A stretch of 27,700 nucleotides of DNA from a virus. The notes below the pieces were generated by a model. The model worked only from the letters and a program-made list of their open reading frames with translations. It ran no database searches and was not told the origin of the DNA. The position numbers and the translations under genes are program-made. Location: IMG/VR virus record IMGVR_UViG_3300002138_000025, positions 1 to 27,700 of that record; one strand, 5' to 3'. This document shows, piece after piece, positions 2 through 17,555 of this stretch (position 1 is the stretch's first letter; each line of letters starts with the position of its first letter).

Positions 2-94
2 GAAGAACCACTACCATCAGTTGTTATAAAAGAAGAACCACTAAAAGAAGTAGAAGAACCACTACCATCAGTTGTTATAAAAGAAGAGGAAACC
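2..94 (+). repeat. Direct tandem repeat, 51-nt period (about 1.8 copies)
   Basis: The block starting gaagaaccactaccatcag at position 2 starts again at position 53 and runs nearly identically to about 90. The repeat is in frame (17 codons) and lies in the end of the partial CDS. Near-perfect nucleotide identity, not only protein identity, suggests a recent duplication. More copies may lie to the left of the window. Confidence 0.85.
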
Positions 95-151
95 AAATTT
101 ATTTCAATGGATTCAACTCCAAAATATTTTAATAAGGAAGATGTAAAATGA
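2..151 (+). CDS. C-terminal end of an unidentified protein with 17-residue repeats (5' truncated by window edge)
   Basis: An open frame enters from the left edge and stops with TGA at 149-151; no start lies inside the window. The 49 visible residues are acidic/proline-rich and contain a 17-residue unit beginning EEPLPSVVIK that recurs at once (period 51 nt). The stop overlaps the start codon of the curlin-like gene as ATGA, so the two are almost certainly translationally coupled. The tail looks like a flexible, low-complexity C-terminus. Function cannot be told from this fragment; a curli-accessory or secretion role is only suggested by the neighbour. Confidence 0.7.
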   Translation, partial: EEPLPSVVIKEEPLKEVEEPLPSVVIKEEETKFISMDSTPKYFNKEDVK

Positions 152-855
152 AAAAAGGACTATTACTTTTTAGTATGATGTCTATATTAGTTTCTGCTGT
201 ACAAGCACAGCAGAGTGGTAATAATTCAGTGTATATTGATCAGACTAACGCTGATAATTCAACTATAACAATTACACAGACAGGGTCTGGTAATGAGATT
301 GGTGATAGGGTTGCTATGGTAGACCCAGCTTTTATCATCGAAGGTAACAACATGGATTTAACTATCAACCAAGATGGTATGAACAATATTATCACTGGTA
401 ATTTTATTGGTGGAGATTCAACATTAAGTATTGATCAAACAGGAAGTTTAAATATATTCTCATTAACTCAAGGTAACTTCGGTACAAATGGTGGTAATTG
501 GGTAGCTAATTTTACTGGAGATAGTAATAATGTTGGTATTACAATGGGGTCAACTGCAAATACTGGTAACTATATTTACAATTTAAATGTAACTGGAAAC
601 ACTAATACATTGACAAGTACAATGAATAGTAAATATATTACAAACAATATAACTATTACTGGTGATACTAACACTTATACCACTACTCAAACTGGTTTCT
701 CTGGAACTAATATTGTAGCTGGTCATAAGATTGATAGTACTATCATCGGTGATTCTAATGTTTTAACAGTAACCCAAGATGGAACAAATGCTGCAAATTA
801 TGCGACAGTTAATATTACTGGTAACAATACTACTACAACGATAGTTCAACATTGA
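148..855 (+). CDS. Secreted curlin-repeat (CsgA/CsgB-like) protein
   Basis: The protein has 235 aa. Residues 1-20 form a clear signal peptide (basic MKK, hydrophobic core, cleavage after AQA). The rest is a run of degenerate repeats, about 20-30 residues each, rich in Asn, Thr, Gly and Gln, of the form N-x-I/L-x-x-x-Q-x-G-x-x-N, for example IDQTNADNS, ITQTGSGNE, INQDGMNN, IDQTGSLN and VTQDGTNA. This is the pattern of curlin repeats, which fold as stacked beta-strand turns in curli amyloid. There are almost no charged residues and no Cys in the mature part. It follows the upstream gene with an ATGA overlap and is followed by a secreted FecR protein. An extracellular amyloid-like fibre or surface adhesin is the family expectation; its role in a phage is unknown. 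A tail-fibre repeat protein is a weaker alternative, disfavoured by the signal peptide. Confidence 0.82.
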   Translation: MKKGLLLFSMMSILVSAVQAQQSGNNSVYIDQTNADNSTITITQTGSGNEIGDRVAMVDPAFIIEGNNMDLTINQDGMNNIITGNFIGGDSTLSIDQTGSLNIFSLTQGNFGTNGGNWVANFTGDSNNVGITMGSTANTGNYIYNLNVTGNTNTLTSTMNSKYITNNITITGDTNTYTTTQTGFSGTNIVAGHKIDSTIIGDSNVLTVTQDGTNAANYATVNITGNNTTTTIVQH

Positions 856-877
856 ATTCTGGATAGATCCTGAATTT
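855..877 (+). other. Small inverted repeat after the curlin-like gene
   Basis: aattc-t-ggat / ag / atcc-t-gaatt forms a short hairpin starting at the curlin stop codon (5 + 4 bp with one T-T mismatch). No T-run follows, so it is not a convincing rho-independent terminator. It could lower readthrough into, or protect mRNA upstream of, the FecR gene 34 nt downstream. Chance occurrence in AT-rich DNA is possible. Confidence 0.35.
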
Positions 878-910
878 AAAATTAAACGAAGTATTGCACT
901 TAAAAAAACA

Positions 911-1939
911 ATGCATTATTTAGCAGCATTGATAATATTTTTCAGCATTAATTGTTATGGCGGAATAGGTACTATCACAGAGGGTAATGGCAATAGCGAA
1001 ATTCTAAGGAAGAAAGATACTATAAATGCCAAACTGAATACTGGAATCGAACCTATGGATACAGTTGTAACTGCTAATGGTATAGTGGGTATGACTTTTA
1101 TAGATAATACTAAGATACGAGTCACTCAACATTCTAAACTTATTATAGATGATTTTGTTTATGATACTAAATCTAAAGGATCAAGTAAACTCGTTATGCG
1201 AATTGCACTTGGTACAGTTAGATACGCATCTGGTAACATAGCACATAACAATCCAAACTCTGTTGGTATATCTACACCAACAGCTACAGTCGCAGTTCGT
1301 GGAACAGCATTCACAATGACTGTAGATGAAATTGGACAATCCCTAATAATATTACTGCCTAACAAAGATGGAACTGTTGGTGAAATTGAAGTCTCTACTT
1401 CAATGGGATCAGTTGTATTAAACCAAGCATTTCAAGCTACAGTTACTACTGCAAATGAAGTTAAACCAATGAAACCGGCAATACTTAATTTATCTGAATC
1501 TATGATTAATAACATGTTGATTGTAAAGCCCCCTAAAGAAGTTATACGTAGAATGATGGAAGATAATAATAATAATAAGAACGATTTTCTTATGTTTACT
1601 GAATTAGATAAAAATGCATTAGAAATTAAATCAGGACAAGATGTATTAGGGTTTGTAGAACTAGATATAAATGAATTAAATGCTGACTATTTGGGTAATG
1701 CCTTAGACTCACTTTTAATTACCGAATTTAAAGTTGGTTATAACCCATCTACTCAAATTTACGTATTAGATAATGGCCAGAATTGGCAAGTTGACCGACA
1801 TGTAAAAGGAGATATAACCATTATCATAAGTAAAGATAAAGGTTACAATATATCTATACTACAGAATGAGGCGTTAGTATCATTAAAAAATATGGAAGAT
1901 ACTACTAATAAAATAATAATTAAACAAACTGCACGCTAA
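911..1939 (+). CDS. Secreted FecR-domain protein
   Basis: The protein has 342 aa. Residues 1-17 look like a signal peptide, so it should be periplasmic or surface-exposed. About residues 45-160 match the FecR domain: a ligand-like start (GIEPMDTVVT), the FIDNTKIRVTQHSKLIIDDF stretch, GTVRYASG, and the hallmark STPTATVAVRGTAFTM. Unlike the iron-dicitrate sensor FecR it has no N-terminal cytoplasmic anti-sigma part, so it is the stand-alone periplasmic type often found next to CHASE2 cyclases in proteobacteria. The C-terminal 180 residues match nothing I recognise. The gene lies 23 nt upstream of the CHASE2 cyclase, which supports a shared sensing role. There is no strong ribosome-binding site at the chosen ATG. 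Confidence is high for the domain and low for the physiological role. Confidence 0.85.
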   Translation: MHYLAALIIFFSINCYGGIGTITEGNGNSEILRKKDTINAKLNTGIEPMDTVVTANGIVGMTFIDNTKIRVTQHSKLIIDDFVYDTKSKGSSKLVMRIALGTVRYASGNIAHNNPNSVGISTPTATVAVRGTAFTMTVDEIGQSLIILLPNKDGTVGEIEVSTSMGSVVLNQAFQATVTTANEVKPMKPAILNLSESMINNMLIVKPPKEVIRRMMEDNNNNKNDFLMFTELDKNALEIKSGQDVLGFVELDINELNADYLGNALDSLLITEFKVGYNPSTQIYVLDNGQNWQVDRHVKGDITIIISKDKGYNISILQNEALVSLKNMEDTTNKIIIKQTAR

Positions 1940-1962
1940 TTTCGCTAATACTAAATAGCAAT

Positions 1963-4035
1963 ATGCTAAAATTATTATTAAGCCCTTGGACTGCTATAAT
2001 TACATTATTATTATTATTATTTATCAGAGTACAAGATCCACCATTTGTTGAGTCAGTAAGATTAAGGTATTTCGATCAACTGATAACTTCTAAAGAAAGT
2101 ACAACATCCAAACAAATTGTTGTAGTAAATATAGATGATGAATATATACAGAAAACGGGCCAGTTCCCGTTTCCAAGAGGAGAATATGCAAGAATAATTC
2201 AGGACTTGTATTCTCGTAATGCTGGGCTGGTTGTATTTAATGTATACATGCCAGATGTTGATCGCTTTAATGAAGATGATTTACTCGTAAAAGTTTTAAA
2301 ACAATATCCTGTAATACTACCTCAAGTAGCAACTAACGATAAAATTAAAACAGATTATAAACCGTTTCGCCCTGGAGTTTCCATCATAGGTGAAGGCATT
2401 GCTGGTATTAATTATGGAAATATACAACCTAATGTAAGGATACTCAATGAAAACGCTAGTGGAATTGGTATTGTTAATGTTTTTCCTGAACTCGATGGCG
2501 TTGTCCGAAGAGTACCCATGTTGGTCCGGTCAGGCGGCTTACTCTACCCAAGCCTTGCCCTTGAAACCTTGCGAGTTGCAGCAGGAGATCCAAGCTTTCA
2601 AGTCAAACTTAGTGGAGATTCCTCAGGGAATATTGTCGCAGTCAGAATTCCACAGTACGGAAAAATCGCAACAGATAGTTACGGAAGAATTTGGCTGGAT
2701 TGGTCTTCAAAATCAACCGAATATTCCGTACTTACTTTGCCAAAAGACCTCGGAGGTGCGGTTGTCATCGTCGGAGTTACTGGGAGAGGCCTCAACAATC
2801 CAGTTGCAACAGCAAGAGGGGAAATCTACCCACATCATTTGCAGGCAAGTGCCCTCGACACCGTAATAAGTGGAAAGAGTATATCTCGACCAGATTGGGC
2901 TGATGGTGCAGAAACTCTTCTATTATTTTTAATAGGTATTATATTATTAATATTAACAAGGTTCACTTATGCGGGCATTATATTCATGGTTGGTACAGTT
3001 GGTATATCACTGTATGGTAGTTTCTATGCTTATACTGAGTATATGTATCTCATGGATGGTACTTACTTTGCTTTATCTTTGGTTCTTGTTGGATTACATG
3101 CATATACCGTTAAATTTATAAGCGAGTTCTTACAGAAACAACAAATTAAAAAACAATTTGGTACATATTTGTCACCAGCATTGGTTGAGAAATTACAAAA
3201 GAATCCAGAGTTATTAACTCTCGGTGGAGAATCTAGAGAATTAAGTATTATGTTTACAGATGTTCGTGGATTCACTTCTATCTCTGAACATTATGGTAAA
3301 GATGTACAGGGTTTAACTAAAATTATGAATAGATATATGACGGCAATGACTAAACGCATATTAGAAAACAATGGTACATTAGATAAGTATATAGGTGATG
3401 CTCAAATGGCATTTTGGAATGCCCCACTTGATGAAGAAGAACACGCAAAACTCGCAGTTAAAACTGCACTAGAAATGATGGAGAGTTTAGATGGTTTTAA
3501 CGCAGAGGTTGTTGCTGAAGGTGTTCCAGCCTTTGGGATGGGCCTTGGTATTAATACTGGGGTTGTTGTTGTTGGTAACATGGGCAGTGACCAGCGGTTT
3601 GATTATACTTGCCTCGGGGATAGTGTTAATCTGGCTGCCAGGCTTGAAGGCCAAAGCAAGAACTATGGCGTTAAAATAATACTTGGTCCAGATACTGCTA
3701 AATATGTAGAAGACGTATACGCATTACTCGAATTAGATTGTATTGCAGTTAAAGGTAAAACTGAGGGTGTGCGAATTTATACTGTATTAGGTACACATGA
3801 AAAGATGTTGACTGAATCATCTTACGTAATGGAAACTGCACAGCATGAAAAGATGTTGAATTTATACAGGATGCAAAAGTTTGATACTGCAATACATTTT
3901 TGCGAAGATCTTAAAATGTGCTTCGGTGGTAAGATGGAAGAGTATTATAATTTATGGATTTTGAGATGTGCTGAAATGAAGTCTGCAAACCTTAGTCAAA
4001 ATTGGGATGGAGTTTACAGAGCTACATCTAAGTAA
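1963..4035 (+). CDS. CHASE2-domain membrane class III adenylate cyclase
   Basis: The protein has 690 aa. Transmembrane segment 1 spans about residues 8-22, an extracytoplasmic CHASE2 sensor about 25-310 (VVNIDDEYIQKTGQFPFPR is typical), then three transmembrane helices at about 318-385, the GTYLSP linker, and a class III cyclase catalytic domain at about 425-605. The catalytic set is complete: metal ligands D433 (FTDVRGF) and D479 (YIGDA), adenine-selecting K475 and T549 (the Lys/Thr pair of class IIIb adenylate cyclases), and transition-state N556 and R560 (SVNLAARLE). It should make cAMP from ATP in response to an envelope signal; adenylate rather than guanylate specificity follows from K475/T549. 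It ends the plus-strand cassette with FecR and the curlin. Bases 2521-2880 are much richer in G+C than the flanks. Membrane cyclases are very unusual in phages. Confidence 0.9.
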   Translation: MLKLLLSPWTAIITLLLLLFIRVQDPPFVESVRLRYFDQLITSKESTTSKQIVVVNIDDEYIQKTGQFPFPRGEYARIIQDLYSRNAGLVVFNVYMPDVDRFNEDDLLVKVLKQYPVILPQVATNDKIKTDYKPFRPGVSIIGEGIAGINYGNIQPNVRILNENASGIGIVNVFPELDGVVRRVPMLVRSGGLLYPSLALETLRVAAGDPSFQVKLSGDSSGNIVAVRIPQYGKIATDSYGRIWLDWSSKSTEYSVLTLPKDLGGAVVIVGVTGRGLNNPVATARGEIYPHHLQASALDTVISGKSISRPDWADGAETLLLFLIGIILLILTRFTYAGIIFMVGTVGISLYGSFYAYTEYMYLMDGTYFALSLVLVGLHAYTVKFISEFLQKQQIKKQFGTYLSPALVEKLQKNPELLTLGGESRELSIMFTDVRGFTSISEHYGKDVQGLTKIMNRYMTAMTKRILENNGTLDKYIGDAQMAFWNAPLDEEEHAKLAVKTALEMMESLDGFNAEVVAEGVPAFGMGLGINTGVVVVGNMGSDQRFDYTCLGDSVNLAARLEGQSKNYGVKIILGPDTAKYVEDVYALLELDCIAVKGKTEGVRIYTVLGTHEKMLTESSYVMETAQHEKMLNLYRMQKFDTAIHFCEDLKMCFGGKMEEYYNLWILRCAEMKSANLSQNWDGVYRATSK

Positions 4036-4048: not shown

Positions 4049-4294
4049 CTAGTATGTTTTTTTCACTTTATTAAGATATTTCTTATCATACATACTATTT
4101 TGGAGTTCTAACATAGCCGAAACAATTGGGGATCCGAATATAAGATTTCCCTTTTCTTTAGATATCTTAGATATTTCCCTTGCTCGTACAGAAGCAATCA
4201 GAATCATATTAAATTGATTGCCGCCTGCGTTATCTATACATTTTTGATTATCGAGTAGTTCTGTTCTACTTTTGGTTGGAGTTGTAATATTCAT
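4049..4294 (-). CDS. rpoZ: RNA polymerase omega-subunit-like protein
   Basis: The protein has 81 aa, close to the length of bacterial omega. Residues from about 16 (CIDNAGGNQFNMILIASVRA, followed by REIS) align by eye with the conserved omega core, in which C/V-x-x-x-x-N-R-F-x-L-V-L-x-A-x-x-R-A-R-x-x is the signature helix; the later FGSPIVSAMLEL segment sits where omega has NPVVxALREI. Omega wraps the C-terminal tail of beta-prime and aids RNA polymerase assembly. A phage copy could alter host RNA polymerase. A GGAT ribosome-binding site lies 7 nt before the ATG. It is the last minus-strand gene, convergent with the cyclase with only 13 nt between stops. The segment between the two omega motifs is shorter than in E. 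coli. I am fairly confident of the family but not of function. Confidence 0.72.
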   Translation of the reverse strand: MNITTPTKSRTELLDNQKCIDNAGGNQFNMILIASVRAREISKISKEKGNLIFGSPIVSAMLELQNSMYDKKYLNKVKKTY

Positions 4295-4343
4295 TTAGTT
4301 TATCCGTTGTTATATTAATCTGGTATAGTCATTAATTTTGCCA

Positions 4344-4997
4344 TTAGTTGATTATATTGGCATTTTTGTCATGAATTGTTTCGTTAATATATTCTACCCA
4401 TTCATTTAATAATTCCCATTGTTTCTCTGACATGTATTCATACATAACTTCATATTTGAATTCGTTGTATTCATCACTATCATCTCCATCTACATCTTCA
4501 TTTTTAAGTTTAAGTAGTTCGGGGTATATAATATGTAGATTTTCAATGAGTTCATCATAATCCCATTCCATAGCCTCCCATATACCATCAGATGTAAATA
4601 TTGAACATCCGTATTGGTTTGGCATTTCATCCTCGTAAGTAACCAATGCAATAATTTTTGGGTTAACTTCACCAAGTTTTTTAACAATCCATTCTAATCC
4701 AATTTCTGGATATGACCATGCACATGTTAATTTAAAAGACGCACCATCAGTACTGTCATTATCAAATTCATCGAAATAACTCCACTTTGGCCCAATGTGT
4801 TCAGTAGTCCATTCGTATGTATCAGTAATATCATACGTTGGAGAACCTTCCTTTCCGTCAACCCATATGTCACTAAACCATTCGTATGCATGATTTTTAG
4901 AGTATGGTCTAACACGAGAATACATTTCCTCTAGCATTGCTTTACCAGCTTCATTAAGGTTTCTAAACTCTACATTCACATTCACATTATTTGCCAT
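4344..4997 (-). CDS. Acidic protein with Api92/YubB-like ferredoxin-fold domain (tentative)
   Basis: The protein has 217 aa from the ATG at 4997, chosen because AGGA lies about 10 nt upstream; the longer frame (to 5033) would overlap the previous gene. The N-terminus resembles NVNVEFRN, and the centre carries W-T-T-E-H-I-G-P-K-W-S-Y followed by F-K-L-T-C-A-W-S-Y-P-E. This resembles the NWGTKWD ... F.TAWSPP core of the Api92/YubB ferredoxin-like domain found in phage and plasmid proteins of unknown role. The C-terminal third is very acidic (a DVDGDDSDEYNE stretch). It lies between a 67-aa gene and the omega-like gene. The acidic surface could suggest DNA mimicry or protein binding, but that is speculation. 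Confidence 0.6.
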   Translation of the reverse strand: MANNVNVNVEFRNLNEAGKAMLEEMYSRVRPYSKNHAYEWFSDIWVDGKEGSPTYDITDTYEWTTEHIGPKWSYFDEFDNDSTDGASFKLTCAWSYPEIGLEWIVKKLGEVNPKIIALVTYEDEMPNQYGCSIFTSDGIWEAMEWDYDELIENLHIIYPELLKLKNEDVDGDDSDEYNEFKYEVMYEYMSEKQWELLNEWVEYINETIHDKNANIIN

Positions 4998-5016
4998 AAT
5001 ATTATTTCCTACTTTA

Positions 5017-5220
5017 TTAAACCATCTTATCAATTACTTGACCAACATTAGAATTATTAATTTTACTCAACTGTATTCTATGATCCTCATTATGTTGAAT
5101 TCTTTGACTCAACATCCTTTGTTCTTGAGACAGGTATACTGCATCTCTGTAGTTAAAACGAAGTTTTTGATAGTACAACTCCATGTCAACGTAATTATCA
5201 ATTTTATGTATTGGATCCAT
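5017..5220 (-). CDS. Small conserved-looking protein, unknown function
   Basis: The protein has 67 aa, hydrophilic and helical, with a heptad-like middle (LSQEQRMLSQRIQHNEDHR) that could form a short coiled coil. A good ribosome-binding site (AAGGAT, 7 nt before ATG) supports it as real. It is followed at 20 nt by the Api92-like gene. It is not recognised. Confidence 0.6.
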   Translation of the reverse strand: MDPIHKIDNYVDMELYYQKLRFNYRDAVYLSQEQRMLSQRIQHNEDHRIQLSKINNSNVGQVIDKMV

Positions 5221-5267
5221 TTATTCTATCCTTAAAAAATTAATCACACACTATTTCCTACCAAATT

Positions 5268-5344
5268 TGGCGGACCGTAGGGGACTCGAACCCCTGACCT
5301 CCGCCGTGACAGGGCGGCATTCTAACCAACTGAACTAACGATCC
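5268..5344 (-). tRNA. tRNA-Asp (anticodon GTC), CCA encoded
   Basis: On the minus strand the 77-nt sequence folds as a standard tRNA. Acceptor GGATCGT pairs with ACGGTCC (one T-G pair), the D-arm is GTTCAGTTGGTTAGAAT, the anticodon arm is CCGCC-CTGTCAC-GGCGG with anticodon GTC at 5308-5310, and the T-arm is AGGGG-TTCGAGT-CCCCT. Discriminator G and a genome-encoded CCA (5268-5270) follow. It lies between small genes, downstream of the promoter at 5500-5528. Phage tRNAs commonly supplement host decoding; GAC/GAT codons would be read here. Confidence 0.95.
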
Positions 5345-5345
5345 T

Positions 5346-5501
5346 CTAATCTGGCCAACCTAACCAAGCACCAATAAGAAGAAATATAAAAAATGCAAAT
5401 TCAAATGATATAATACATACAGCAATAATTTGAATATCTTCAATATCTTTAATCAATTGCCTTGATTTTTCTACATAATCTTTTTTCTTCTTAACTATCA
5501 T
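5346..5501 (-). CDS. Small membrane protein (start uncertain)
   Basis: About 51 aa from the ATG at 5501: a lysine-rich N-terminus, then one strong transmembrane helix (about residues 25-45) and a WLGWPD end. The in-frame ATG at 5528 lies upstream of, and the one at 5501 inside, the -10 box of the promoter at 5500-5528, so a transcript from that promoter could not use either. The first other in-frame initiation candidate after the predicted +1 is TTG at 5456, preceded by AAGG, giving 36 aa. It may be read from longer upstream transcripts instead. It ends one base before the tRNA gene. No family recognised. Confidence 0.45.
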   Translation of the reverse strand: MIVKKKKDYVEKSRQLIKDIEDIQIIAVCIISFEFAFFIFLLIGAWLGWPD

Positions 5502-5528
5502 TATACCATACTTTTTGGTTAATTGCAA
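5500..5528 (-). promoter_or_regulatory. Sigma70-type promoter (TTGCAA-17-TATAAT)
   Basis: On the minus strand, -35 TTGCAA (5523-5528) in the context CACTTGCAA, a spacer of exactly 17 bp ending TATGG, and -10 TATAAT (5500-5505). It is one of a family of matching promoters in this window. It should drive the small membrane gene and the tRNA-Asp and genes beyond. It lies just after the terminator at 5537-5569, as expected for a new transcription unit. Confidence 0.8.
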
Positions 5529-5536
5529 GTGGTTTG

Positions 5537-5569
5537 AAAAAAAAACCTAACATTGGGAGTATTAGGTTT
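5537..5569 (-). terminator. Rho-independent terminator
   Basis: Minus-strand RNA forms AAACCTAA / 11-nt loop / TTAGGTTT (perfect 8-bp stem) followed by a run of U residues (plus-strand a-run 5537-5545). It lies 24 nt past the stop of the 5811-5593 gene and just before the next promoter, so it ends the HAD-hydrolase transcription unit. Confidence 0.85.
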
Positions 5570-5592
5570 GAGAGAGTTAGTGGTCTTATAGT

Positions 5593-5811
5593 TTAATTAT
5601 TATTTTGATCACTATCATTATTTATAACATTTATTTCTTTCTTTACACTATTATTTTCCAACATCATCTCCCTCAACTCTATAATAGTTATGAGATGCCC
5701 ATCTATTCCACCTTTAAAATATCCATCAGTATGCCCGCTTTTGTACAGTGAATACATCCCACATCCAAAGAAAATAAACAATGTTGTGATCATCCAGTAT
5801 TCTAGAAACAT
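5593..5811 (-). CDS. Small membrane protein, unknown function
   Basis: The protein has 72 aa. An N-terminal transmembrane helix (about residues 3-24) precedes a Gly-rich segment (SGHTDGYFKGGIDGH) and a polar Asn/Asp-rich tail. The start codon lies one base past the stop of the HAD hydrolase gene (TAATATG), so it is probably coupled. Followed by a strong terminator. Not recognised. Confidence 0.6.
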   Translation of the reverse strand: MFLEYWMITTLFIFFGCGMYSLYKSGHTDGYFKGGIDGHLITIIELREMMLENNSVKKEINVINNDSDQNNN

Positions 5812-5812
5812 A

Positions 5813-6430
5813 TTAATCTTCTACAATTTCAGCAAGTTCGACCATATTGTAAATATGTTCCCATTTCCAAACACGAGGTATACTATTATCTCTAAAATAA
5901 GAGTTATGATCATGCCCCATTAAGATAGACTTTAAACCCATATCTAAACCAAGTTCAGCATTAGATGGTTTATCTTCAACCCAGATACAACCACTATTAC
6001 GATAAGGTTCTAGTATATCATTTTTATCTGCACCAGTATCCGCACAGACTAATCTTTCAAATATACCTTTACCAAAAACTTTATCTAAATTCATTTGGCG
6101 TAACAGTTGAGCATTGGGGTCGTCGCTTAAAGATGTTAGGCAATGGAATACATAACCTAATTTCTCATGCAACTTTCGAACATAGTGAACAGCATCCCTC
6201 AATGGAGGTAAGAATCCAATTGAAGCAGATTCATTAAACTGTCGTATCAAAGATTTGGATAACTCTGGTGTAATATTAAACATTAAATGCATCTTATATT
6301 CACCTATACCAATTACTTCATATCCACGATGCATCATCCATACCCTAAAACTATATTCCCAATCTAATAAAACACCATCACAATCGGTAAGAATTATCTT
6401 CCTAGGGTCTGTATATATTTTTTTTATCAT
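5813..6430 (-). CDS. HAD-superfamily hydrolase (predicted phosphatase/nucleotidase)
   Basis: The protein has 205 aa with the four HAD motifs in order: motif I DCDGV (nucleophile D16, acid/base D18), motif II T99 (CLTSLSD), motif III K136 (ADKND), and motif IV E152-D153 (VEDKPSNAEL). HAD enzymes act through an aspartyl-phosphate, most often as phosphatases. The compact helical cap between motifs I and II fits a small-substrate enzyme such as a deoxynucleotidase, but the substrate cannot be fixed from sequence. Similar HAD proteins occur in T4-like marine phages. The gene is first after its own promoter (6465-6493) and precedes a small membrane gene. Confidence 0.85.
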   Translation of the reverse strand: MIKKIYTDPRKIILTDCDGVLLDWEYSFRVWMMHRGYEVIGIGEYKMHLMFNITPELSKSLIRQFNESASIGFLPPLRDAVHYVRKLHEKLGYVFHCLTSLSDDPNAQLLRQMNLDKVFGKGIFERLVCADTGADKNDILEPYRNSGCIWVEDKPSNAELGLDMGLKSILMGHDHNSYFRDNSIPRVWKWEHIYNMVELAEIVED

Positions 6431-6464
6431 TTTTATTTTATTAATTCTTCCAACTTATTTTAAT

Positions 6465-6493
6465 ATTATACCATAAAATTATAAAAAATACAA
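6465..6493 (-). promoter_or_regulatory. Sigma70-type promoter (TTGTAT-17-TATAAT)
   Basis: On the minus strand, -35 TTGTAT (6488-6493), a 17-bp spacer ending TATGG, and -10 TATAAT (6465-6470), 35 nt upstream of the HAD gene start. Inverted arms ATTTTA (6457-6462) and TAAAAT (6474-6479) flank the -10. Confidence 0.75.
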
Positions 6494-6544
6494 TTGATTA
6501 TTTACTATTGTTGTATTTTAGCAACAGTAATTTCTTTTTATTGT

Positions 6545-6865
6545 TTAAACTCTAAATGATTCTCCGCAACCACAGCGGTCACGTTCGTTTGGATTATTGA
6601 ATTCAAAGCCTTCGTTGAGGCCTTTGCGGGTATAGTCAATCTCTATACCGTTAAGGTAAGGTTGATCTTTTTTATTAACAATAACGCTAAACCCATTGTG
6701 ATCAATAGCATCATCGCCTTCTGTTAACGTATCTACATATTCTAACACATACGCCAGTCCAGAGCAACCTGTAGTTCTCACACCAACTTTGATACCTATT
6801 CCATGTCCTCTGCGAGTAATATAATGTTGTATCTTTTTGGCCGCTTGGTCAGTTACTGTTAACAT
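6545..6865 (-). CDS. iscA: IscA-type iron-sulfur assembly (A-type carrier) protein
   Basis: The protein has 106 aa, the normal length for IscA. The three conserved cysteines are present: C34 (TTGCSGLAY), and C98 and C100 in the C-terminal RCGCGESF. A-type carriers take 2Fe-2S/4Fe-4S clusters from the IscU scaffold to apo-proteins. The start overlaps the end of iscU by 17 nt. It is the last gene of the ErpA-IscU-IscA run and of the long operon that begins at the 10700 promoter. The sequence is closer to IscA than to ErpA, so the phage carries two different A-type proteins. Confidence 0.92.
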   Translation of the reverse strand: MLTVTDQAAKKIQHYITRRGHGIGIKVGVRTTGCSGLAYVLEYVDTLTEGDDAIDHNGFSVIVNKKDQPYLNGIEIDYTRKGLNEGFEFNNPNERDRCGCGESFRV

Positions 6866-7235
6866 GTTTATTTTTGTAGTCCTCTACTGCGGCTTTAATC
6901 GCATCTTCTGCAAGTATTGAACAATGAATTTTAACAGGGGGTAGGGCGAGTTCAGCAGCAATTTCGCTATTTTGAATCTTTGCCGCTTCGTCAAGTGTCC
7001 TTCCTTTGACCCATTCAGTAAGGAGCGAACTTGATGCAATCGCACTTCCACAGCCGTAGGTTTTAAATTTAGCATCTACGATTATACCTTTCTCTACTTT
7101 AATCTGAAGTTTCATCACATCACCGCACGCTGGGGCGCCCACCATACCAGTACCAACAGTAGGATCATCTTTTTCAAACGATCCTACGTTACGAGGGTTT
7201 TCATAGTGGTCAATGACTGCTTGGCTGTAAGACAT
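6849..7235 (-). CDS. iscU: IscU iron-sulfur cluster scaffold protein
   Basis: The protein has 128 aa, full length for bacterial IscU. It keeps all ligand residues: C37 and D39 (PACGDVM), C62 (YGCGSAIASSS), and H104/C105 (KIHCSILAEDAI). The LPPVK motif at 98-102, which the chaperone HscA recognises, is also present. IscU receives sulfur from the cysteine desulfurase IscS and assembles a 2Fe-2S cluster. No IscS, HscA, HscB or ferredoxin gene is in the window, so the protein should plug into the host ISC machine. The gene sits between erpA (6 nt upstream) and iscA (17-nt overlap). Confidence 0.95.
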   Translation of the reverse strand: MSYSQAVIDHYENPRNVGSFEKDDPTVGTGMVGAPACGDVMKLQIKVEKGIIVDAKFKTYGCGSAIASSSLLTEWVKGRTLDEAAKIQNSEIAAELALPPVKIHCSILAEDAIKAAVEDYKNKHVNSN

Positions 7236-7241
7236 AATAGT

Positions 7242-7571
7242 TTATACCGAGAAACTGCTACCGCATCCACAACTTGTCTGTGCATTTGGGTTTTTTATTG
7301 AAAAACTAGAGCCCATATTATCTTCTTTATAATCAATAACTGCGCCAGTTAAATATTGCATACTCATAGAGTCTATCAACACCGTTACATTATTTTTGTT
7401 AATAACAAAGTCGTCTTCATTTTGCACTTCATCTAATGTAAATCCATATTGCATACCAGAGCACCCACCACCCTGAACAAACGTGCGTAATTTTAATAAA
7501 GAATTATTTTCTTCTGCTATTAAATCTGCAATTTTAAGTATTGCATCATCTGTTATTGTTATTTGTTCCAT
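7242..7571 (-). CDS. erpA: ErpA-type A-type iron-sulfur carrier
   Basis: The protein has 109 aa and closely resembles bacterial ErpA along its length: [20 protein letters not shown] (C37), [15 protein letters not shown], and the C-terminal [10 protein letters not shown] (C101, C103). ErpA hands 4Fe-4S clusters to essential enzymes such as isoprenoid synthesis and respiratory proteins. It is the first of three consecutive iron-sulfur genes. No clear ribosome-binding site precedes the ATG. The similarity to beta/gammaproteobacterial ErpA suggests acquisition from such a host, but this is by eye only. Confidence 0.93.
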
Positions 7572-7598
7572 AAGATTAATATTATTTATACATTTTCT

Positions 7599-8246
7599 TT
7601 ATATTTTAGAAGTTTCTTTCTTCTTTTTGATAGTTGGTACATCTTTTATTTCAATGTTTTTAAGATTCTGTTCATCCGCTTTGGCTTGTAGGGCAAGCAT
7701 TTTACTACCTAATCTCTTAATAACTTCAGTACCATCCATCCATATATCACGATTATCAAGGATAGATGTTATCTCAGTTTCAGTTAAAAAGTTCTCGTAT
7801 ATCTCACGTAATAAGTTTTCCGACCATTTACGTTCATGCTGTAATTGGTCTATCATCTCCCCTCCCTTACCAAATGCGCCCCCAGAGTAATTATGGAACA
7901 TGAACATAGAATGTGGGGTAACTTCAAATTGATCTCCACATAAGAAAATCATAGTCGATGCAGACATACACGCACCTTCAACTGAACAACATACTGTCGC
8001 ATTAGTTTCAGCAAGTATTCGCATAAATTGTATTGCAGTGAATAGATCACCACCAGGGCTATTAATATAAAGTTTAACAAAGTCTTGTTCACTTGCGTGC
8101 CTAATGCAATCAAACCATTCAATATATTGATCGGAACTTTCGATCTCTCCAGATAAATAAAATTCATGTACTTGCCCAATTGGCCTATTTGTAAAGAAAT
8201 CTTTAGGTTGTTTATTCGCACCTTTTAATAATTCTAATAAATCCAT
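7599..8246 (-). CDS. clpP: ClpP-like serine protease
   Basis: The protein has 215 aa from the ATG at 8246, preferred over the GTG at 8270 because GGAG lies 8 nt upstream. ClpP fold features: INSPGGDLFTAI, nucleophile S95 (GACMSAS), H118 (MFMFHNYSGG) and D167 (NRDIWMDG), i.e. an intact Ser-His-Asp triad. Length and order match ClpP with a lysine-rich C-terminal tail. ClpP-like proteins are common in T4-like marine phages and may act with host ClpX/ClpA or in head maturation; no ATPase partner lies here. It overlaps the stop of the upstream exonuclease gene by a few bases. Confidence 0.9.
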   Translation of the reverse strand: MDLLELLKGANKQPKDFFTNRPIGQVHEFYLSGEIESSDQYIEWFDCIRHASEQDFVKLYINSPGGDLFTAIQFMRILAETNATVCCSVEGACMSASTMIFLCGDQFEVTPHSMFMFHNYSGGAFGKGGEMIDQLQHERKWSENLLREIYENFLTETEITSILDNRDIWMDGTEVIKRLGSKMLALQAKADEQNLKNIEIKDVPTIKKKKETSKI

Positions 8247-8247
8247 A

Positions 8248-8952
8248 TTATGCTCCAAAAAATTTTTCACGTTTAAATCTTGTTATAGTTTCAATCAATG
8301 GCGCAGTCCAATTGTCTCTGTGTTCTTTAAACACTAAAGGTGGATTGTCATCAACTGCAATAATTGTAACTAAGTTAACAATTGGTATATTAGTCCTCTC
8401 CTCCCACATAACTGCATATGCAGACTCTTGCATAAAATAACTATGAATGTGATCATATGTTTTTACACGTTTACTTGTTTTAAAATCGATGATAGAAGGT
8501 ATCCCATCAAACTCAGCCACGCAATCGACACGTCCAGCGACACCCAAGTAATCAGAATATAAAGGTAACTCTTGTCCATAAATTTTTCCAATTCTTTCAT
8601 CTAATATAGGTTGGATACTTTTAAATGTATCTACCACATCTGGCATAAGTCCTGTTTTATAATCAGGGTCATTGTTTAAATATTTCTCAGCAATAAGGTG
8701 AACAGCAGTACCACGCCTAGATGCCTTTCCAGATATACGATTAGCTTCTTCTGCTCCAACTCGTTCTCTCCATGCTCGTATACCATCCGCACTTAATATA
8801 CTTAGAACACTAGTTATAGAAGGATACTGTTTACCACTAGGTAAATTATATACTCGTTTACCGTCTACAGTAGAAGTAGTTAAATCTTTATACCCAAGAT
8901 CAGCACCAATATGTTCAAATATTTTCTTTTGGGTCTTCGTTAATGGTATCAT
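8248..8952 (-). CDS. PD-(D/E)XK exonuclease, MGME1/RecB-like
   Basis: About 234 aa from the ATG at 8952 (an upstream start at 8997 lies deeper in the previous gene). The N-terminus has the P-S-I-T-S-V-L pattern typical of this phage family, then RRGTAVHLIAEKYL (the helix with catalytic His). The nuclease core is GRVDCVAEFDGIPSIIDFKTSK, in which D, D and K form the PD-(D/E)XK site, followed by a Q-x-x-x-Y helix (QESAYAV). This matches the RecB-family single-strand exonucleases related to mitochondrial MGME1 that are frequent in marine T4-like phages. Likely role: recombination, repair or host DNA breakdown. It overlaps the preceding small gene by 38 nt. Confidence 0.83.
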   Translation of the reverse strand: MIPLTKTQKKIFEHIGADLGYKDLTTSTVDGKRVYNLPSGKQYPSITSVLSILSADGIRAWRERVGAEEANRISGKASRRGTAVHLIAEKYLNNDPDYKTGLMPDVVDTFKSIQPILDERIGKIYGQELPLYSDYLGVAGRVDCVAEFDGIPSIIDFKTSKRVKTYDHIHSYFMQESAYAVMWEERTNIPIVNLVTIIAVDDNPPLVFKEHRDNWTAPLIETITRFKREKFFGA

Positions 8953-9124
8953 TATATAAGTAGTCAGTAGTATTATTAATTCTTCGTGTAATCCCAAATT
9001 CAGATTGCCGTTTCTCTAGTTTATTTTTACGACGTGTAACTGAATCGAATTTATCTAGATCTTCTCTGCGTCGCTCGCCTGGTTTTTGTGATTGTCCACC
9101 TTCAAAACGTTTAAATTTAGCCAT
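8915..9124 (-). CDS. Small basic protein, unknown function
   Basis: The protein has 69 aa, strongly basic in its N-terminal two thirds (FKRFEGGQSQKPGERRRED, RRKNKLEKR) and acidic at the end. AAAGGT ahead of the ATG is a good ribosome-binding site. Its 3' end overlaps the exonuclease start and it begins 1 nt past the PhoH stop, so it is part of the same operon. Positive charge suggests nucleic-acid binding, but I do not recognise a family. Confidence 0.65.
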   Translation of the reverse strand: MAKFKRFEGGQSQKPGERRREDLDKFDSVTRRKNKLEKRQSEFGITRRINNTTDYLYNDTINEDPKENI

Positions 9125-9125
9125 T

Positions 9126-9860
9126 TTAACCTTTGCTTTCTAGCATCTCCTTTGTTATAATATATTCACGCACTAGATCTGATCTTACAATATCTGACCA
9201 AGTGAACTGGACGTGCTTAAACATTTTCATATTATCGAGAATATTTAAGAACTTGAGGACACCTTCCTTATCATTCTTCTTTTCAAAGTCTGATTGGTAA
9301 TAGTCTCCACATAAGATGAACCGACAATTTTCGCCGACTCGTGTAATAATAGAATCTAACTCATGGAAATTAAGGTTCTGCATTTCGTCTACAATGATAA
9401 TAGCATTCTTAAGTGTAATCCCACGAATGAACGATGTTGTTAAAAATTCCATATTACCTTGTGCTACTAACTTATCATAAGCAATAGGATCGTCAAACAA
9501 CTCAGCTGAAATAGACACATAGGGTAATGTGTAAGATGCTTTCTTCTCATCTTCAGTTCCAGGTAAAAATCCAATATCCCTCGTAGGAACAACTGACCTT
9601 ACAATAATAACTTTATCTAATCTATTATCTTTATTTAATACTTGTTCTAATGCAAGAAACATAGCAATAAAAGTTTTACCAGATCCAGCTGCACCAGACA
9701 ATACCATATGATAATCTTTATCAAATGCATCAAACACTACTGTTTGATTTTCTGTGATAGGTTCTAATGCAATTAGATGTTCTAACCTTAATTTAGTTGG
9801 TTTAACTGAGAACTCCCTCATTTGAGTCGATTTTCTAGTTAATGGTGATGGCTTTTTCAT
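9126..9860 (-). CDS. phoH: PhoH-like ATPase
   Basis: The protein has 244 aa. Walker A GAAGSGKT is at residues 56-63 and Walker B IIIVDEMQN at about 154-162, followed by a sensor segment FILCGDYYQSD. This is the PhoH/ATPase core related to superfamily 1 helicases (RecD-like). PhoH is a frequent marine-phage gene, often used as a marker; proposed roles link it to RNA metabolism or phosphate stress, none proven for phages. Full length for the short phage form. It lies 3 nt after the FmdB-like gene and before the small basic gene in the operon from the 10700 promoter. Confidence 0.95.
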   Translation of the reverse strand: MKKPSPLTRKSTQMREFSVKPTKLRLEHLIALEPITENQTVVFDAFDKDYHMVLSGAAGSGKTFIAMFLALEQVLNKDNRLDKVIIVRSVVPTRDIGFLPGTEDEKKASYTLPYVSISAELFDDPIAYDKLVAQGNMEFLTTSFIRGITLKNAIIIVDEMQNLNFHELDSIITRVGENCRFILCGDYYQSDFEKKNDKEGVLKFLNILDNMKMFKHVQFTWSDIVRSDLVREYIITKEMLESKG

Positions 9861-9863
9861 ATG

Positions 9864-10115
9864 CTAATCATGGATATTATTAATAACTAAATTTGACTTT
9901 ATCTTAGAAAGTACTTCTTTCCATCCGTTATCGGTCTTACTTAAAAGGCTTCCAACTCCAGTTACAATCTTTGGGGAACGCATTATGTAGTTAATACTCG
10001 TGGCATTTCCGCATGATGGGCATGGTTTTTTTTCGGCATTCATTCTATCAGAGATCTTAACGATCAGATCGAATTCTTTATCACATGATGTACATGCATA
10101 TGAATAGGTTGGCAT
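9864..10115 (-). CDS. FmdB-like zinc-ribbon protein
   Basis: The protein has 83 aa, beginning MPTYSYACTSCDKEF. Two CxxC pairs (C8-C11 and C32-C35) form a zinc ribbon typical of the FmdB/putative regulatory protein family; the C-terminal part is polar with no further motif. Such proteins may bind nucleic acid or act in regulation; the phage role is unknown. The start overlaps the stop of the upstream gene by one base (TAATG). Confidence 0.8.
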   Translation of the reverse strand: MPTYSYACTSCDKEFDLIVKISDRMNAEKKPCPSCGNATSINYIMRSPKIVTGVGSLLSKTDNGWKEVLSKIKSNLVINNIHD

Positions 10116-10666
10116 TATTTAATTCCTTGTATAAACCAGTATGGAATTTCGCGTTTTTTCCATGTAGCAAATCGCGACTTCTCATGTATATAGTACTTAC
10201 GATAAGACTCTATCGAGTTTCCTGGAACCTTACAGTACTCTGGCATTGCGGGTGGTGGTTCTGTGAAAGGTGCCTTGATATCAATGTTAACTGGTGCTGC
10301 AAACAGATCTATCATAAGGCGTTCTGTTTTATGAACTTTACCATACCGTTTGGTATATTCTTTGCACAAGTGGTAGAACAACTCGTGCAAATGTTCGTAA
10401 TTCTTGTAGGACTGTCGTACCCATATCGCCGAAGGATGGTTCATATGAGTCGCTTTATACAAAGCAGAATCGAGTGAACTATTTTCTAATTTCCAGACTT
10501 TTTGGTTTCGACCAGATTTGGTCAGTGCGGTTGCTTGTACACCATCGAGTACACGATGAGCAGTAGATAGTAGTTGGGCGTACTCAAGAATCATCTTGAC
10601 TACGTGTTTATCACAATGTTCTTTAGCGCATTGTAGCGGGTTTGTATTTAAATAAAATATGTTCAT
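10115..10666 (-). CDS. Conserved T4-like marine phage protein with CDKHVVKM motif
   Basis: The protein has 183 aa. The N-terminus MNIFYLNTNPLQCAKEHCDK runs into HVVKMILEYAQLLSTAHR, a pattern I recall from many T4-like cyanophage and pelagiphage genomes where it is left as a hypothetical protein. Conserved C, D, K, H and E residues in this helix and HPSAIWVRQS later in the protein suggest an enzyme or a metal/nucleic-acid site, but I cannot name a function. It is the first gene after the promoter and dyad at 10687-10728; no good ribosome-binding site precedes the ATG. Confidence 0.78.
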   Translation of the reverse strand: MNIFYLNTNPLQCAKEHCDKHVVKMILEYAQLLSTAHRVLDGVQATALTKSGRNQKVWKLENSSLDSALYKATHMNHPSAIWVRQSYKNYEHLHELFYHLCKEYTKRYGKVHKTERLMIDLFAAPVNIDIKAPFTEPPPAMPEYCKVPGNSIESYRKYYIHEKSRFATWKKREIPYWFIQGIK

Positions 10667-10686
10667 GTAATTAAATCACAAAAGTA

Positions 10687-10718
10687 CTCCCAAGTAAATA
10701 TTATACCATACTTGGGAG
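10687..10718. promoter_or_regulatory. Perfect 10-bp inverted repeat centred on the -10 box (candidate operator)
   Basis: ctcccaagta (10687-10696) and tacttgggag (10709-10718) are perfect reverse complements with a 12-nt centre. The centre of symmetry coincides with the centre of the -10 hexamer (10700-10705), so a dimeric regulator bound here would block RNA polymerase. The predicted start lies inside the left arm, so a full hairpin would not form in the RNA. Confidence 0.65.
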
Positions 10719-10728
10719 GACTATGCAA
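10700..10728 (-). promoter_or_regulatory. Sigma70-type promoter (TTGCAT-17-TATAAT)
   Basis: On the minus strand, -35 TTGCAT (10723-10728) within GACTTGCAT, a 17-bp spacer ending AAGTATGG, and -10 TATAAT (10700-10705). It is placed ahead of the operon from 10666 to 6545 (CDKHVVKM protein, FmdB, PhoH, exonuclease, ClpP, ErpA-IscU-IscA). Confidence 0.83.
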
Positions 10729-10743
10729 GTCATTTCTGAGTTG

Positions 10744-10905
10744 CTAAGAATACTCCTCCATGTCAGTTAATTGTCTCTCGATAAAATCACGTTTCTTGAT
10801 CATAGTATATGCCCTTTGTTGATCACCCTCCTTCTTTAGCCGTTGTATATAATGCGATAACTCTTTCGAGTCTCTTCTTAATCTTTCAATCTGACTTTTT
10901 GACAT
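10744..10905 (-). CDS. Small coiled-coil protein (53 aa)
   Basis: A 53-aa frame begins MSKSQIERLRRDSKELSHYI and ends MEEYS. It is almost wholly charged and helical with heptad-like spacing, so a short coiled coil is likely. GAAGAAGGGTG before the ATG is a good ribosome-binding site. It fills an otherwise empty gap between the DUF6433-like gene and the 10700 promoter. No family recognised. Confidence 0.65.
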   Translation of the reverse strand: MSKSQIERLRRDSKELSHYIQRLKKEGDQQRAYTMIKKRDFIERQLTDMEEYS

Positions 10906-10972
10906 AGGCACCCTTCTTCGAGTTTATGAATTTACATAACGAATAGTATTTCTTGTCCTCCTAATTATATTA

Positions 10973-11410
10973 TTATTTCACAATGAGTTTTGGAAAAACA
11001 CTCTTGACCAATTTCTTAGTCAAGGACGGAAACAACTTATTAAGTTGTTTATCTTTCATAGCTATCAGAATTTCCGCATCAGGCGTATGAATAGATTCTA
11101 AGATATTGATAAACATTCGTTCCCGTTTAGCAATATTCATTTTGTCACCAGGGCCACCTTTTACAAAGTACCTTAGTTTACTAGATTGTCTGTGTAAGTT
11201 TGAAAGTGTTAGATCAGGGGCGACATTATCTTTTTTGTATGGTGGTGACCCAGTTGGTATAGACCATTCAATAGAGTCGTCTAGAGAGCCTTTTAATATA
11301 TCTCTCAATGCAAGGCAATTATGCTTCAAAATTAATTCAGATTTCTCTTTATTAGTTTTAGCATTTTCTATAATAGTAAATATCTCTGATATCGATAACA
11401 TTTTAGACAT
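10973..11410 (-). CDS. Conserved marine-phage protein (DUF6433-like)
   Basis: The protein has 145 aa. It begins MSKMLSISEIFTIIENAKTN and contains DILKGSLDDSIEW, P-x-G-x-P-P-Y, RYFVKGGPGDKM, RERMFINILESIH, DAEILIAMKDKQL and a KKLVKSVFPKLI end. These match my memory of a family conserved in T4-like cyanophages, labelled DUF6433, that often sits beside RNase H or DNA-replication genes. Function unknown. Its start is 1 nt past the RNase H stop, so the two are coupled. Confidence 0.8.
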   Translation of the reverse strand: MSKMLSISEIFTIIENAKTNKEKSELILKHNCLALRDILKGSLDDSIEWSIPTGSPPYKKDNVAPDLTLSNLHRQSSKLRYFVKGGPGDKMNIAKRERMFINILESIHTPDAEILIAMKDKQLNKLFPSLTKKLVKSVFPKLIVK

Positions 11411-11411
11411 T

Positions 11412-12260
11412 TTAATAAAATTCCTCTATACATTCAATAAGCAATTTACAACGATTTTTGATCAAGTAGTTGAGAAACTTGGTTTTATGTGGGGTAACAT
11501 AATTTTCAAAAGTATTTATAATTTTAGATTTATGTACTTCTGGGACCATCGTTAAATCGATCAAAGTCTTATTACGTTGATAATTACGATAAACATCTTC
11601 AGGCATAACCTCATTAAGTTTTAATGCATTTGGTGCCCATAGGTTAATCTTAGTTTTAGATAGTGGAGTTTGTCTTACACCATCGACGAATACGTTATCG
11701 CCAGATAATACGTTAGGTATACCATCACCAGTATCACCCCTAAGTATATGCTCAAATAGGTAAGCATTTGGATCTTTTTCTGTAACATATTTCTTTTGTA
11801 TTGGCGAATATTGTTTAATGCCAAATTTTTGAAGTTGAATAAAATCGTGATCAGATGACACAATCATTACTGGTTCATTGTTACCAAACTCTTGTGTATT
11901 TAATGCCAGTGTACCAATGATGTCGTCTGCTTCACAACCATCAAAGTGTAATACTTTATATTGAGTATTATCCCTAATTTCATCACGGACTTTATTAAGT
12001 ATTTCAAAAATAGCGTTCCAGTCTATAGTAGATTCTGAGCGACCTTTACGACGTGATGCTTTATAATTGGGAAAATATGATCTGCGCCATGTATTACTAC
12101 CATCACATGCGAGTATAACTTGTCCATATTCTTTCTTGAACTTTTTATTGTACATACGAATAGAATTAAGAATCATATGACGTATCATCTCATCATCTGG
12201 TGCCATTTTTTGTGCAATAATGTTGCTCAATGCAATTTGACTGTAATCTATTATAATCAT
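11412..12260 (-). CDS. rnh: T4-type RNase H (5'-3' FEN-family exonuclease)
   Basis: The protein has 282 aa, near the 305 of T4 RNase H. Acidic metal-binding positions appear in order: D5 (MIIIDYSQIA), the ILACDGSNTWRRSYFPNYKA segment with the basic RRKGR arch, DGCEADDIIGTLA, and SSDHDFIQLQ, then the helix-hairpin-like GDTGDGIPNVLS. Such enzymes remove RNA primers and flaps during lagging-strand synthesis. It starts about 30 nt downstream of its own promoter and is followed by the DUF6433-like gene. Confidence 0.93.
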   Translation of the reverse strand: MIIIDYSQIALSNIIAQKMAPDDEMIRHMILNSIRMYNKKFKKEYGQVILACDGSNTWRRSYFPNYKASRRKGRSESTIDWNAIFEILNKVRDEIRDNTQYKVLHFDGCEADDIIGTLALNTQEFGNNEPVMIVSSDHDFIQLQKFGIKQYSPIQKKYVTEKDPNAYLFEHILRGDTGDGIPNVLSGDNVFVDGVRQTPLSKTKINLWAPNALKLNEVMPEDVYRNYQRNKTLIDLTMVPEVHKSKIINTFENYVTPHKTKFLNYLIKNRCKLLIECIEEFY

Positions 12261-12279
12261 CTATAGTGTTTCAATTTAT

Positions 12280-12320
12280 GGTGTAATATACATTATACAC
12301 CAATTTTATATAAAATGCAA
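12280..12320 (-). promoter_or_regulatory. Sigma70-type promoter (TTGCAT-17-TATAAT) with flanking dyad
   Basis: On the minus strand, -35 TTGCAT (12315-12320) in CACTTGCAT, a 17-bp spacer ending TTGGTG, and -10 TATAAT (12292-12297), upstream of RNase H. Arms ggtgta (12280-12285) and tacacc (12296-12301) form a 6-bp inverted repeat across the -10 and predicted start. Confidence 0.82.
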
Positions 12321-12335
12321 GTGTTTTTTTATAAT

Positions 12336-12767
12336 TTAAGGTGATTTTGATGAATTCGACACTGAATTTGTCCATAAATGTTTGACATGTGTCTTGTGGA
12401 TCTTGCAGTTAATAATTCCGTTATAGAAGGTATTGTCTAGTAATACTTTCTGCGAGAACTGTTCATCAGCTTCGATATAACTTGCTTCCCCCTTAGATAA
12501 ACATAAATGTAGAATTTCTCTGCGAAAATTATGTTCTCCTAGTGCTTCGACATCCTTCTTAAGTTCTTCAGATGATGACCAATATGTTCGCCAATCTGAA
12601 TCAATTTTTAATCGTTTCTTCTTACCTTTTATAACTTTACTCTTACTAAATTTAGTTAATTTCTTACCTATATATTTCCTATTATTAGTAAGATTAGTTA
12701 TAATATAAACAAATGCAACATATCTTTCATCGATTTCAGTTATTTCAACCCCATTATGTAACCACAT
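12336..12767 (-). CDS. GIY-YIG-like endonuclease-family protein
   Basis: The protein has 143 aa from the ATG at 12767, with GAAGAA about 6 nt upstream. FVYIITNLTNNRKYIGKKLT fits the GIY-YIG N-terminus (here VYI ... YIG), followed by SDWRTYWSSS, a FRREILHLC stretch and the catalytic-type acidic segment GEASYIEADEQF. I recall close relatives annotated as putative endonucleases in many T4-like cyanophages at a position near RNR/RNase H. It is not inside an intron and is conserved with its neighbours, so a repair or DNA-processing role is more likely than homing. The start follows the zinc-ribbon gene directly. Confidence 0.78.
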   Translation of the reverse strand: MWLHNGVEITEIDERYVAFVYIITNLTNNRKYIGKKLTKFSKSKVIKGKKKRLKIDSDWRTYWSSSEELKKDVEALGEHNFRREILHLCLSKGEASYIEADEQFSQKVLLDNTFYNGIINCKIHKTHVKHLWTNSVSNSSKSP

Positions 12768-12770
12768 CAA

Positions 12771-12941
12771 TTATTCTTCTTGGAAGTAGTCGTCATCCAA
12801 TTCTAATTCATCTCCCTCCTCTGGTCTATGATTTTCAGCACAATAGGGGCAATAGGTAGGTTCTTGAATAGCATTTTCCTCATCGTATGACAATGAATAA
12901 AACATTCCGCAATTATCGCAATCAAAAGATTTTTTAATCAT
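12771..12941 (-). CDS. Small zinc-ribbon-like acidic protein (56 aa)
   Basis: A 56-aa frame starts MIKKSFDCDNCGMFYSL and has two CxxC pairs (CDNC, CPYC) about 22 residues apart, then an acidic tail. This is a compact zinc ribbon. The start overlaps the glutaredoxin stop as ATGA, and the stop lies just before the next gene, so it is translated as part of the nrd operon. No named family. Confidence 0.75.
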   Translation of the reverse strand: MIKKSFDCDNCGMFYSLSYDEENAIQEPTYCPYCAENHRPEEGDELELDDDYFQEE

Positions 12942-13183
12942 ATGCTCATTTCTTTCATTTGTACGTAAACTATAAAATCTAAGTATCCGCCTATAAGGTT
13001 TCCATCGTCATCTAATATCAGTGGTACAGACCTGGCCGTTGGATATAACTCTTTAAATTTTTCCATTGTGATATCTACACCTATTTCAACATTATCAAAC
13101 TTTATATTCTTTGAACTAGCTAGATTCTTTGCTTGAATACAATTAGGACATGGTGGTGAACTCCTAGTATACATAGTTATCAT
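12938..13183 (-). CDS. grx: Glutaredoxin
   Basis: The protein has 81 aa with a thioredoxin-like fold: active site C12-P-N-C15 (SPPCPNCIQAK), cis-proline P54 (RSVPLI) and the GG motif at 65-66 (IGGYLD). Glutaredoxins regenerate the reduced thiols of class Ia ribonucleotide reductase, which matches its place directly after nrdB with a 4-nt ATGA overlap, as with T4 NrdC. It is slightly short but complete. Confidence 0.92.
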   Translation of the reverse strand: MITMYTRSSPPCPNCIQAKNLASSKNIKFDNVEIGVDITMEKFKELYPTARSVPLILDDDGNLIGGYLDFIVYVQMKEMSI

Positions 13184-14301: not shown

Positions 14302-14333
14302 TTATTTTCCTACAATCCATTAAAATATATATT

Positions 14334-16647: not shown

Positions 16648-16662
16648 TTTTCCTAAGTGTCT

Positions 16663-16691: not shown

Positions 16692-16692
16692 G

Positions 16693-17503: not shown

Positions 17504-17555
17504 AATATTTTCCCATTAACTAATAATAGCTACTACCCTGCTGGAGCACTATGTT

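Follow-up and report, generated by a model that had tools for sequence, protein, structure and literature searches.

A phage-borne curlin–FecR–CHASE2 cyclase cassette in which the FecR protein appears to end in a curlin-like repeat

At the left end of the window, a 27.7-kb virus record, stand three complete, open and co-oriented reading frames with predicted products of three kinds: a curlin that is secreted, a FecR-domain protein of the periplasm and a CHASE2 cyclase (Table 1). They are preceded on the same strand by the end of a truncated gene whose stop codon overlaps the curlin ATG. The main genes to the right of this cassette lie on the other strand and are phage genes according to PHROGs and Pfam. 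The initial annotation had described a curlin-FecR-CHASE2 cyclase unit opposite in strand to the other main genes, and the reading frames, the Pfam matches and the curlin model bear this out. It had also called the unit unlike the rest of the genome; in base composition the cassette does not stand out, its GC3 (0.20-0.27) overlapping that of the phage genes (0.19-0.36). The repeat-tailed partial gene that it placed at the left edge is present as a truncated, co-oriented gene, and its identity can be refined. Judging by position, it is most likely the C-terminal extension of csgG, because relatives with upstream room carry csgG directly before the curlin gene. The 50-residue fragment has no similarity to csgG; the window begins inside that gene, and csgG C-terminal tails are variable among the relatives, several of them disordered-looking. 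The export genes of csgG/csgF type that were expected further left agree with the gene order of the relatives.

Table 1. Features of the window, with strand and basis of assignment.
Feature	Position	Strand	Basis
3' end of truncated gene, acidic/proline repeats (EEPLPSVVIKEEPLKEVEEP...)	2..151	+	open from base 2, TGA stop at 149-151
Putative secreted curlin (CsgA/B-like amyloid subunit), 235 aa	148..855	+	signal-like N-terminus, weak PF07012, Q/N/G ladder, model
Putative periplasmic FecR-domain protein, 342 aa	911..1939	+	PF04773, phrog_37870, model vs PupR
FecR C-terminal curlin-like repeat, residues ~312-342	1844..1936	+	FecR alignments, strand matrix, profile-profile scores
Putative CHASE2 receptor-type class III cyclase, 690 aa	1963..4035	+	PF05226, PF00211
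Phage genes as a block	4049..27700	-	PHROGs/Pfam
tRNA-Asp (gtc)	5268-5344	-	
Nucleotidase-like	5813-6430	-	PHROGs/Pfam
NifU-like	6849-7235	-	PHROGs/Pfam
ClpP-like protease	7599-8270	-	PHROGs/Pfam
Exonuclease	8248-8997	-	PHROGs/Pfam
PhoH	9126-9860	-	PHROGs/Pfam
T4 RNase H, with its C-terminal domain	11412-12260	-	PHROGs/Pfam
Ribonucleotide reductase	13180-16622	-	PHROGs/Pfam
Rz-like spanin	17045-17503	-	PHROGs/Pfam
Cytidyltransferase	21443-22498	-	PHROGs/Pfam
DUF6267 protein	23321-24559	-	PHROGs/Pfam

The curlin match to Pfam is weak (E=0.0047 over 3 stretches, under the gathering score), and a PDB fold search with the model gave no match at E<=0.001. In the AlphaFold model (pLDDT 81, pTM 0.76) the strands stack into a regular ladder at a spacing of ~11 residues, and comparison with viral models returned three matches labelled "Curlin associated", with E down to 2e-9. 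Seven glutamines are invariant across 17 relatives, as is the Gln/Asn/Gly ladder. The Q/N ladder and the modelled strand solenoid thus point to a member of the curlin family. It is the only curlin gene in the window, with no second copy between FecR and the cyclase.

The cyclase has strong matches to CHASE2 (E=4.7e-38) and to the class III cyclase domain (E=1.1e-19), hydrophobic segments at residues 1-29 and 312-346, and all six catalytic residues (D433, K475, D479, T549, N556 and R560), which are conserved in 73-75 of 75 viral homologues. By these sequence features it is a predicted CHASE2 class III adenylate cyclase. The middle of its CHASE2 region (2413-2863) has a G+C content of 0.42-0.47, compared with mostly 0.32-0.42 elsewhere in the gene, and is possibly a recombined patch.

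The FecR-domain protein matches both Pfam (E=1.8e-7) and PHROGs (E 1.5e-75). Its model comprises a FecR fold (~20-200), a low-confidence linker (~200-270) and an all-beta C-terminal domain (276-340). The model aligns with the signalling domain of PupR, a FecR homologue (6ovk; Z 15.3, rmsd 2.6, 137 aligned), so the protein is predicted to have the periplasmic FecR beta fold seen in PupR. A PDB sequence search with the FecR profile gave nothing significant, and no convincing fold match was obtained for the C-terminal domain, the match list being filled by the FecR domain. Classical FecR regulators combine a cytoplasmic N-terminal anti-sigma domain with an adjacent sigma factor or TonB receptor. 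We rejected such a role here: the signal-like start leads at once into the FecR domain, and the neighbours are a curlin and a cyclase.

Among named phages, HTVC008M, cyanophages and Melnitz have the closest relatives of the T4 RNase H encoded in the window, which suggests a T4-like phage; capsid genes lie outside the window. The earlier proposal that a T4-like phage carries the unit is supported by this kinship and by the capsid genes found in cassette relatives. The large subunit of the ribonucleotide reductase is ~60% identical to those of jumbo phages, for example Xanthomonas phage XaC1, and only 24% identical to the homologue in L003, a cassette relative.

We also weighed whether the record might be an assembly chimera in which bacterial DNA (bases 1-4035) is joined to phage DNA at 4035-4049. 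Such an accident would fit L137 and L138, the relatives closest to the phage block (70-84% identity in blocks), as both lack a cassette at the corresponding boundary; in L137 a peroxiredoxin-like gene stands there, followed by an ORF of 794 residues on the opposite strand. No contig with an identical cassette-phage junction was found, and the protein at 4344-5033, used as a probe for the exact junction, had no confirmed relatives. However, in four independent contigs (L222, L223/L224, L225 and L226) the cassette and homologues of the window genes starting at 8248, 9126, 5813, 10973 and 11412 converge, and elsewhere the cassette sits in contigs with T4 major capsid genes. The same order flanked by phage genes, which had been suggested as a check, therefore does occur in other contigs. 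In L003 the cassette lies between homologues of genes 12336 and 11412 and runs in the same direction as these. From the four convergent contigs and L003 we conclude that the layout of the window is natural and that the cassette occupies varied places and orientations. Because the gene order recurs in dozens of contigs and the layout in four, the cassette is not an assembly accident, and we consider a chimeric join very improbable.

The order csgF-csgG-curlin-FecR-(curlin2)-cyclase was found again in dozens of phage contigs. Among the 80 nearest viral loci, FGcRA (33) and FGcRcA (18) dominate, counts that include HTVC008M and Melnitz. The 80 loci found with the HTVC008M FecR show csgF, csgG and curlin in every case with upstream room (50/50) and the cyclase in every case with downstream room (30/30). 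In L299 the cyclase is broken into several ORFs (FGcRcAAAA) although the cassette is otherwise intact, possibly through decay, duplication or sequencing error. At least 592 IMG/VR stretches, including contigs of 236-344 kb, encode a relative of the cyclase, and exactly one FecR accompanies it in 18/18 cyclase-bearing records >75 kb among the matches listed. T4 major capsid matches occur in cassette relatives that include contigs of 236, 250, 265 and 344 kb (partial in the 265-kb record), and of the cassette-survey records 12 of 29 have a Gp23 capsid, as do 3 of the 11 records with a relative of window gene 5813. The module is thus common in T4-like phages. Four contigs of 236-344 kb (L019, L058, L073 and L076) that carry both the cassette and T4-type capsid matches are probable jumbo phages.

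Curli clusters have previously been described in pelagimyophages (Zaragoza-Solas 2020, PMC7029224) and in Melnitz (Buchholz 2022, PMC9004378). CsgF, CsgG, CsgA/B, FecR, histidine kinase and adenylate cyclase were then reported from podophages and myophages, with an alphaproteobacterial origin inferred and with superinfection defence and sibling capture discussed (Wittmers 2022, PMC9599517). A claim of novelty for the cassette is therefore unsupported, since the curli-FecR-cyclase module of pelagiphages is already published (PMC9599517). The window cassette is a further member of this type VIII secretion module, in an uncultured T4-like lineage: gene families and order are those of the module in T4-like myophages, with curlin, FecR and cyclase following one another in one direction. 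HTVC008M (SAR11) and Melnitz (OM43) carry csgF-csgG-curlin-FecR-curlin-cyclase on a single strand. They differ from the window in having a second curlin between FecR and the cyclase, and their cyclases are ~40% identical to that of the window; the Melnitz cyclase is off consensus at two catalytic positions. Cassette and replication genes converge in the window but run in the same direction in cassette relatives such as L003.

A chromosomal counterpart was identified in Hyphomonas sp. TMED17, where an operon of the same order, csgF-csgG-curlin-FecR-CHASE2 cyclase, lies on a contig of 705 kb, with metabolic genes to one side and a TonB receptor to the other (L088:5032-11055). We found no report of such a Hyphomonas operon in the literature. 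Among 105 genomes of its family only this one has a FecR of this kind, and in five other alphaproteobacteria no FecR or cyclase was found near the curli genes. Trees group Hyphomonas with the phages and do not resolve the direction of transfer between bacterium and phage. Size and similarity make it probable that L084-L087 and L089, short contigs in MAGs, derive from phages and were binned with bacteria. FecR also stands next to CHASE2 proteins in Hoeflea and other bacteria, and such pairs occur in bacteria without curli. In the Burkholderia BiofilmReg operon, which is tied to biofilm formation, a periplasmic LysM-FecR protein adjoins a CHASE2 membrane sensor as in the window; that operon has a histidine kinase and a response regulator instead of a cyclase, and no curli genes are described for it (PMC5192318). 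FecR beside CHASE2 is thus a bacterial arrangement, as initially proposed. The accompanying idea of a module used in a lysogenic or carrier state found no support: the cassette carriers that were examined belong to the T4-like phages, and a scan of window genes turned up no integrase.

The alignments of the phage FecR proteins revealed two conserved glutamines, Q318 and Q339, close to the C terminus. Using a curlin-strand matrix built from phage curlins only, we scored the best window in each whole FecR and found it in the last 40 residues of 54 of 55 phage FecRs, and of 15 of 16 representatives under 60% identity. Controls gave a uniform expectation of 1.7 and a tail-shuffled mean of 4.8, with a maximum of 10 in 200 rounds; the C-terminal Gly-Asn pad used in the scan was applied equally to them. 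Little or no excess of C-terminal windows was seen in csgG, csgF or the cyclase. The pattern recurred in a previously unused set of phage FecRs (49/61) and in all five FecRs from L315 and the four contigs that share the layout of the window. None of 13 bacterial FecR-domain proteins without curli has its best window there, and the Hyphomonas FecR, unlike most of those of the phages, has its best window elsewhere and carries no glutamine-type repeat at its tail. Profile-profile comparison with curlin scored 19-21 for the FecR tail, compared with 2-6 for other parts of the protein and at most 6.9 for shuffled columns; matches by single-sequence HMM are weak. AlphaFold places the tail with good confidence inside the small beta domain (276-340), and shared beta-strand character could therefore add to the resemblance. 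The phage FecR looks as if it ends in one repeat of the fibre protein itself, a feature for which we found no report in the literature. It is the new point here, and it would connect the fibre with the cassette's signalling half in a concrete and testable way.

In our reading, the cassette forms the right-hand portion of a curli (type VIII secretion) module of the phage, and the leading idea, as in the literature, is that the surface of the infected cell is remodelled. During infection, the phage would make a CsgG/CsgF pore in the outer membrane, its genes presumably lying off the left edge, through which the curlin could be secreted to form amyloid on the cell. The periplasmic FecR may use its curlin-like tail to pair with subunits of the curlin or with the base of the fibre and relay their state to CHASE2 in the membrane cyclase, which would then produce cAMP in the cytoplasm. 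The phage might gain by aggregating new hosts or by excluding competitors. A surface amyloid installed by the phage together with a coupled envelope sensor is the best reading, and we give it about an even chance of being right. The conserved order, the co-occurrence of FecR and cyclase, the conserved cyclase residues, the PupR-like fold and the curlin-like tail speak for it, as do the biofilm link of the Burkholderia operon (PMC5192318) and the constitutive cAMP that results when CHASE2 is deleted from CyaD1 (PMC5498481). Against it stand the absence of cyclic-nucleotide-binding proteins from the phage records, their scarcity in Pelagibacter, the missing glutamine-type tail of the Hyphomonas FecR, the weakness of the single-sequence tail matches, and the lack of clumping in Melnitz-infected cells (PMC9004378). 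A phage-encoded cAMP receptor was sought and rejected, as no cyclic-nucleotide-binding protein was found among 29 phage records. Among 61 genomes of the genus of a Pelagibacter MAG, which may be incomplete and bear on SAR11-infecting members only, none has a class III cyclase and only five have a cNMP-binding match, all in 870-residue frames. No recognisable cAMP receptor is therefore seen in the phages or in most of the Pelagibacter genomes sampled, an observation for which we found no earlier report. This raises the question of what the phage cyclase does in such a host.

A more specific version holds that the phage FecR is a fibre-coupled sensor whose acquired curlin repeat docks on curlin subunits or on the fibre as it grows; the cyclase would thereby report envelope amyloid assembly through cAMP in hosts, such as Pelagibacter, with little or no recognisable cAMP machinery. 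We put this forward tentatively, as possible; it would imply a cAMP target new to knowledge in Pelagibacter-like hosts. As the Hyphomonas FecR has no glutamine-type tail, the coupling cannot need that tail in every system. The same tail could instead seed or hold the fibre in place of CsgB, making FecR a periplasmic anchor or nucleator and the cyclase a separate function. Such a role fits the single curlin gene in the window, the match of the FecR model to a "cell surface anchoring domain" (5ix9, Z 7.6), the FecR-like domains in very large bacterial ORFs, and L078, in which FecR has stayed within the curli cassette and the cyclase lies ~16 kb away. We nevertheless find it rather unlikely, given that FecR and the CHASE2 cyclase occur together in all long records tested, among the matches listed, and that bacteria without curli have FecR-CHASE2 pairs. 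The main point could also be the pore itself: CsgG/CsgF would be a gated channel that serves to time lysis or to take up nutrients, and the curlins would be passengers. A gated pore was proposed for Melnitz, with a complete curli pathway found absent and no clumping in culture (PMC9004378). Yet strongly patterned curlins are present in every lineage looked at, and one or two of them, FecR and the cyclase are retained alongside the pore, which makes this explanation improbable.

An exact T4 late promoter, TATAAATA, stands upstream of csgF in 3 of 59 cases and is not a general feature there. ATAAATA occurs within 60 bases upstream of csgF in 9 of 50 cases and of the cyclase in 13 of 69, and never upstream of csgG, curlin or FecR; this looser pattern weakly hints at late expression of the cassette. 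In L039, L043 and L058, csgF is preceded by short ORFs (~125 aa) that weakly resemble the cyclase and may relate to the "histidine kinase" reported before csgF in podophages (PMC9599517). The genes directly after the cyclase in L030 (12004-12708), L079 (12114-12875) and L045 (12014-12646) encode a predicted fatty acid desaturase, a D-Ala-D-Ala carboxypeptidase and a weakly chitinase-like protein, respectively, all of them envelope functions.
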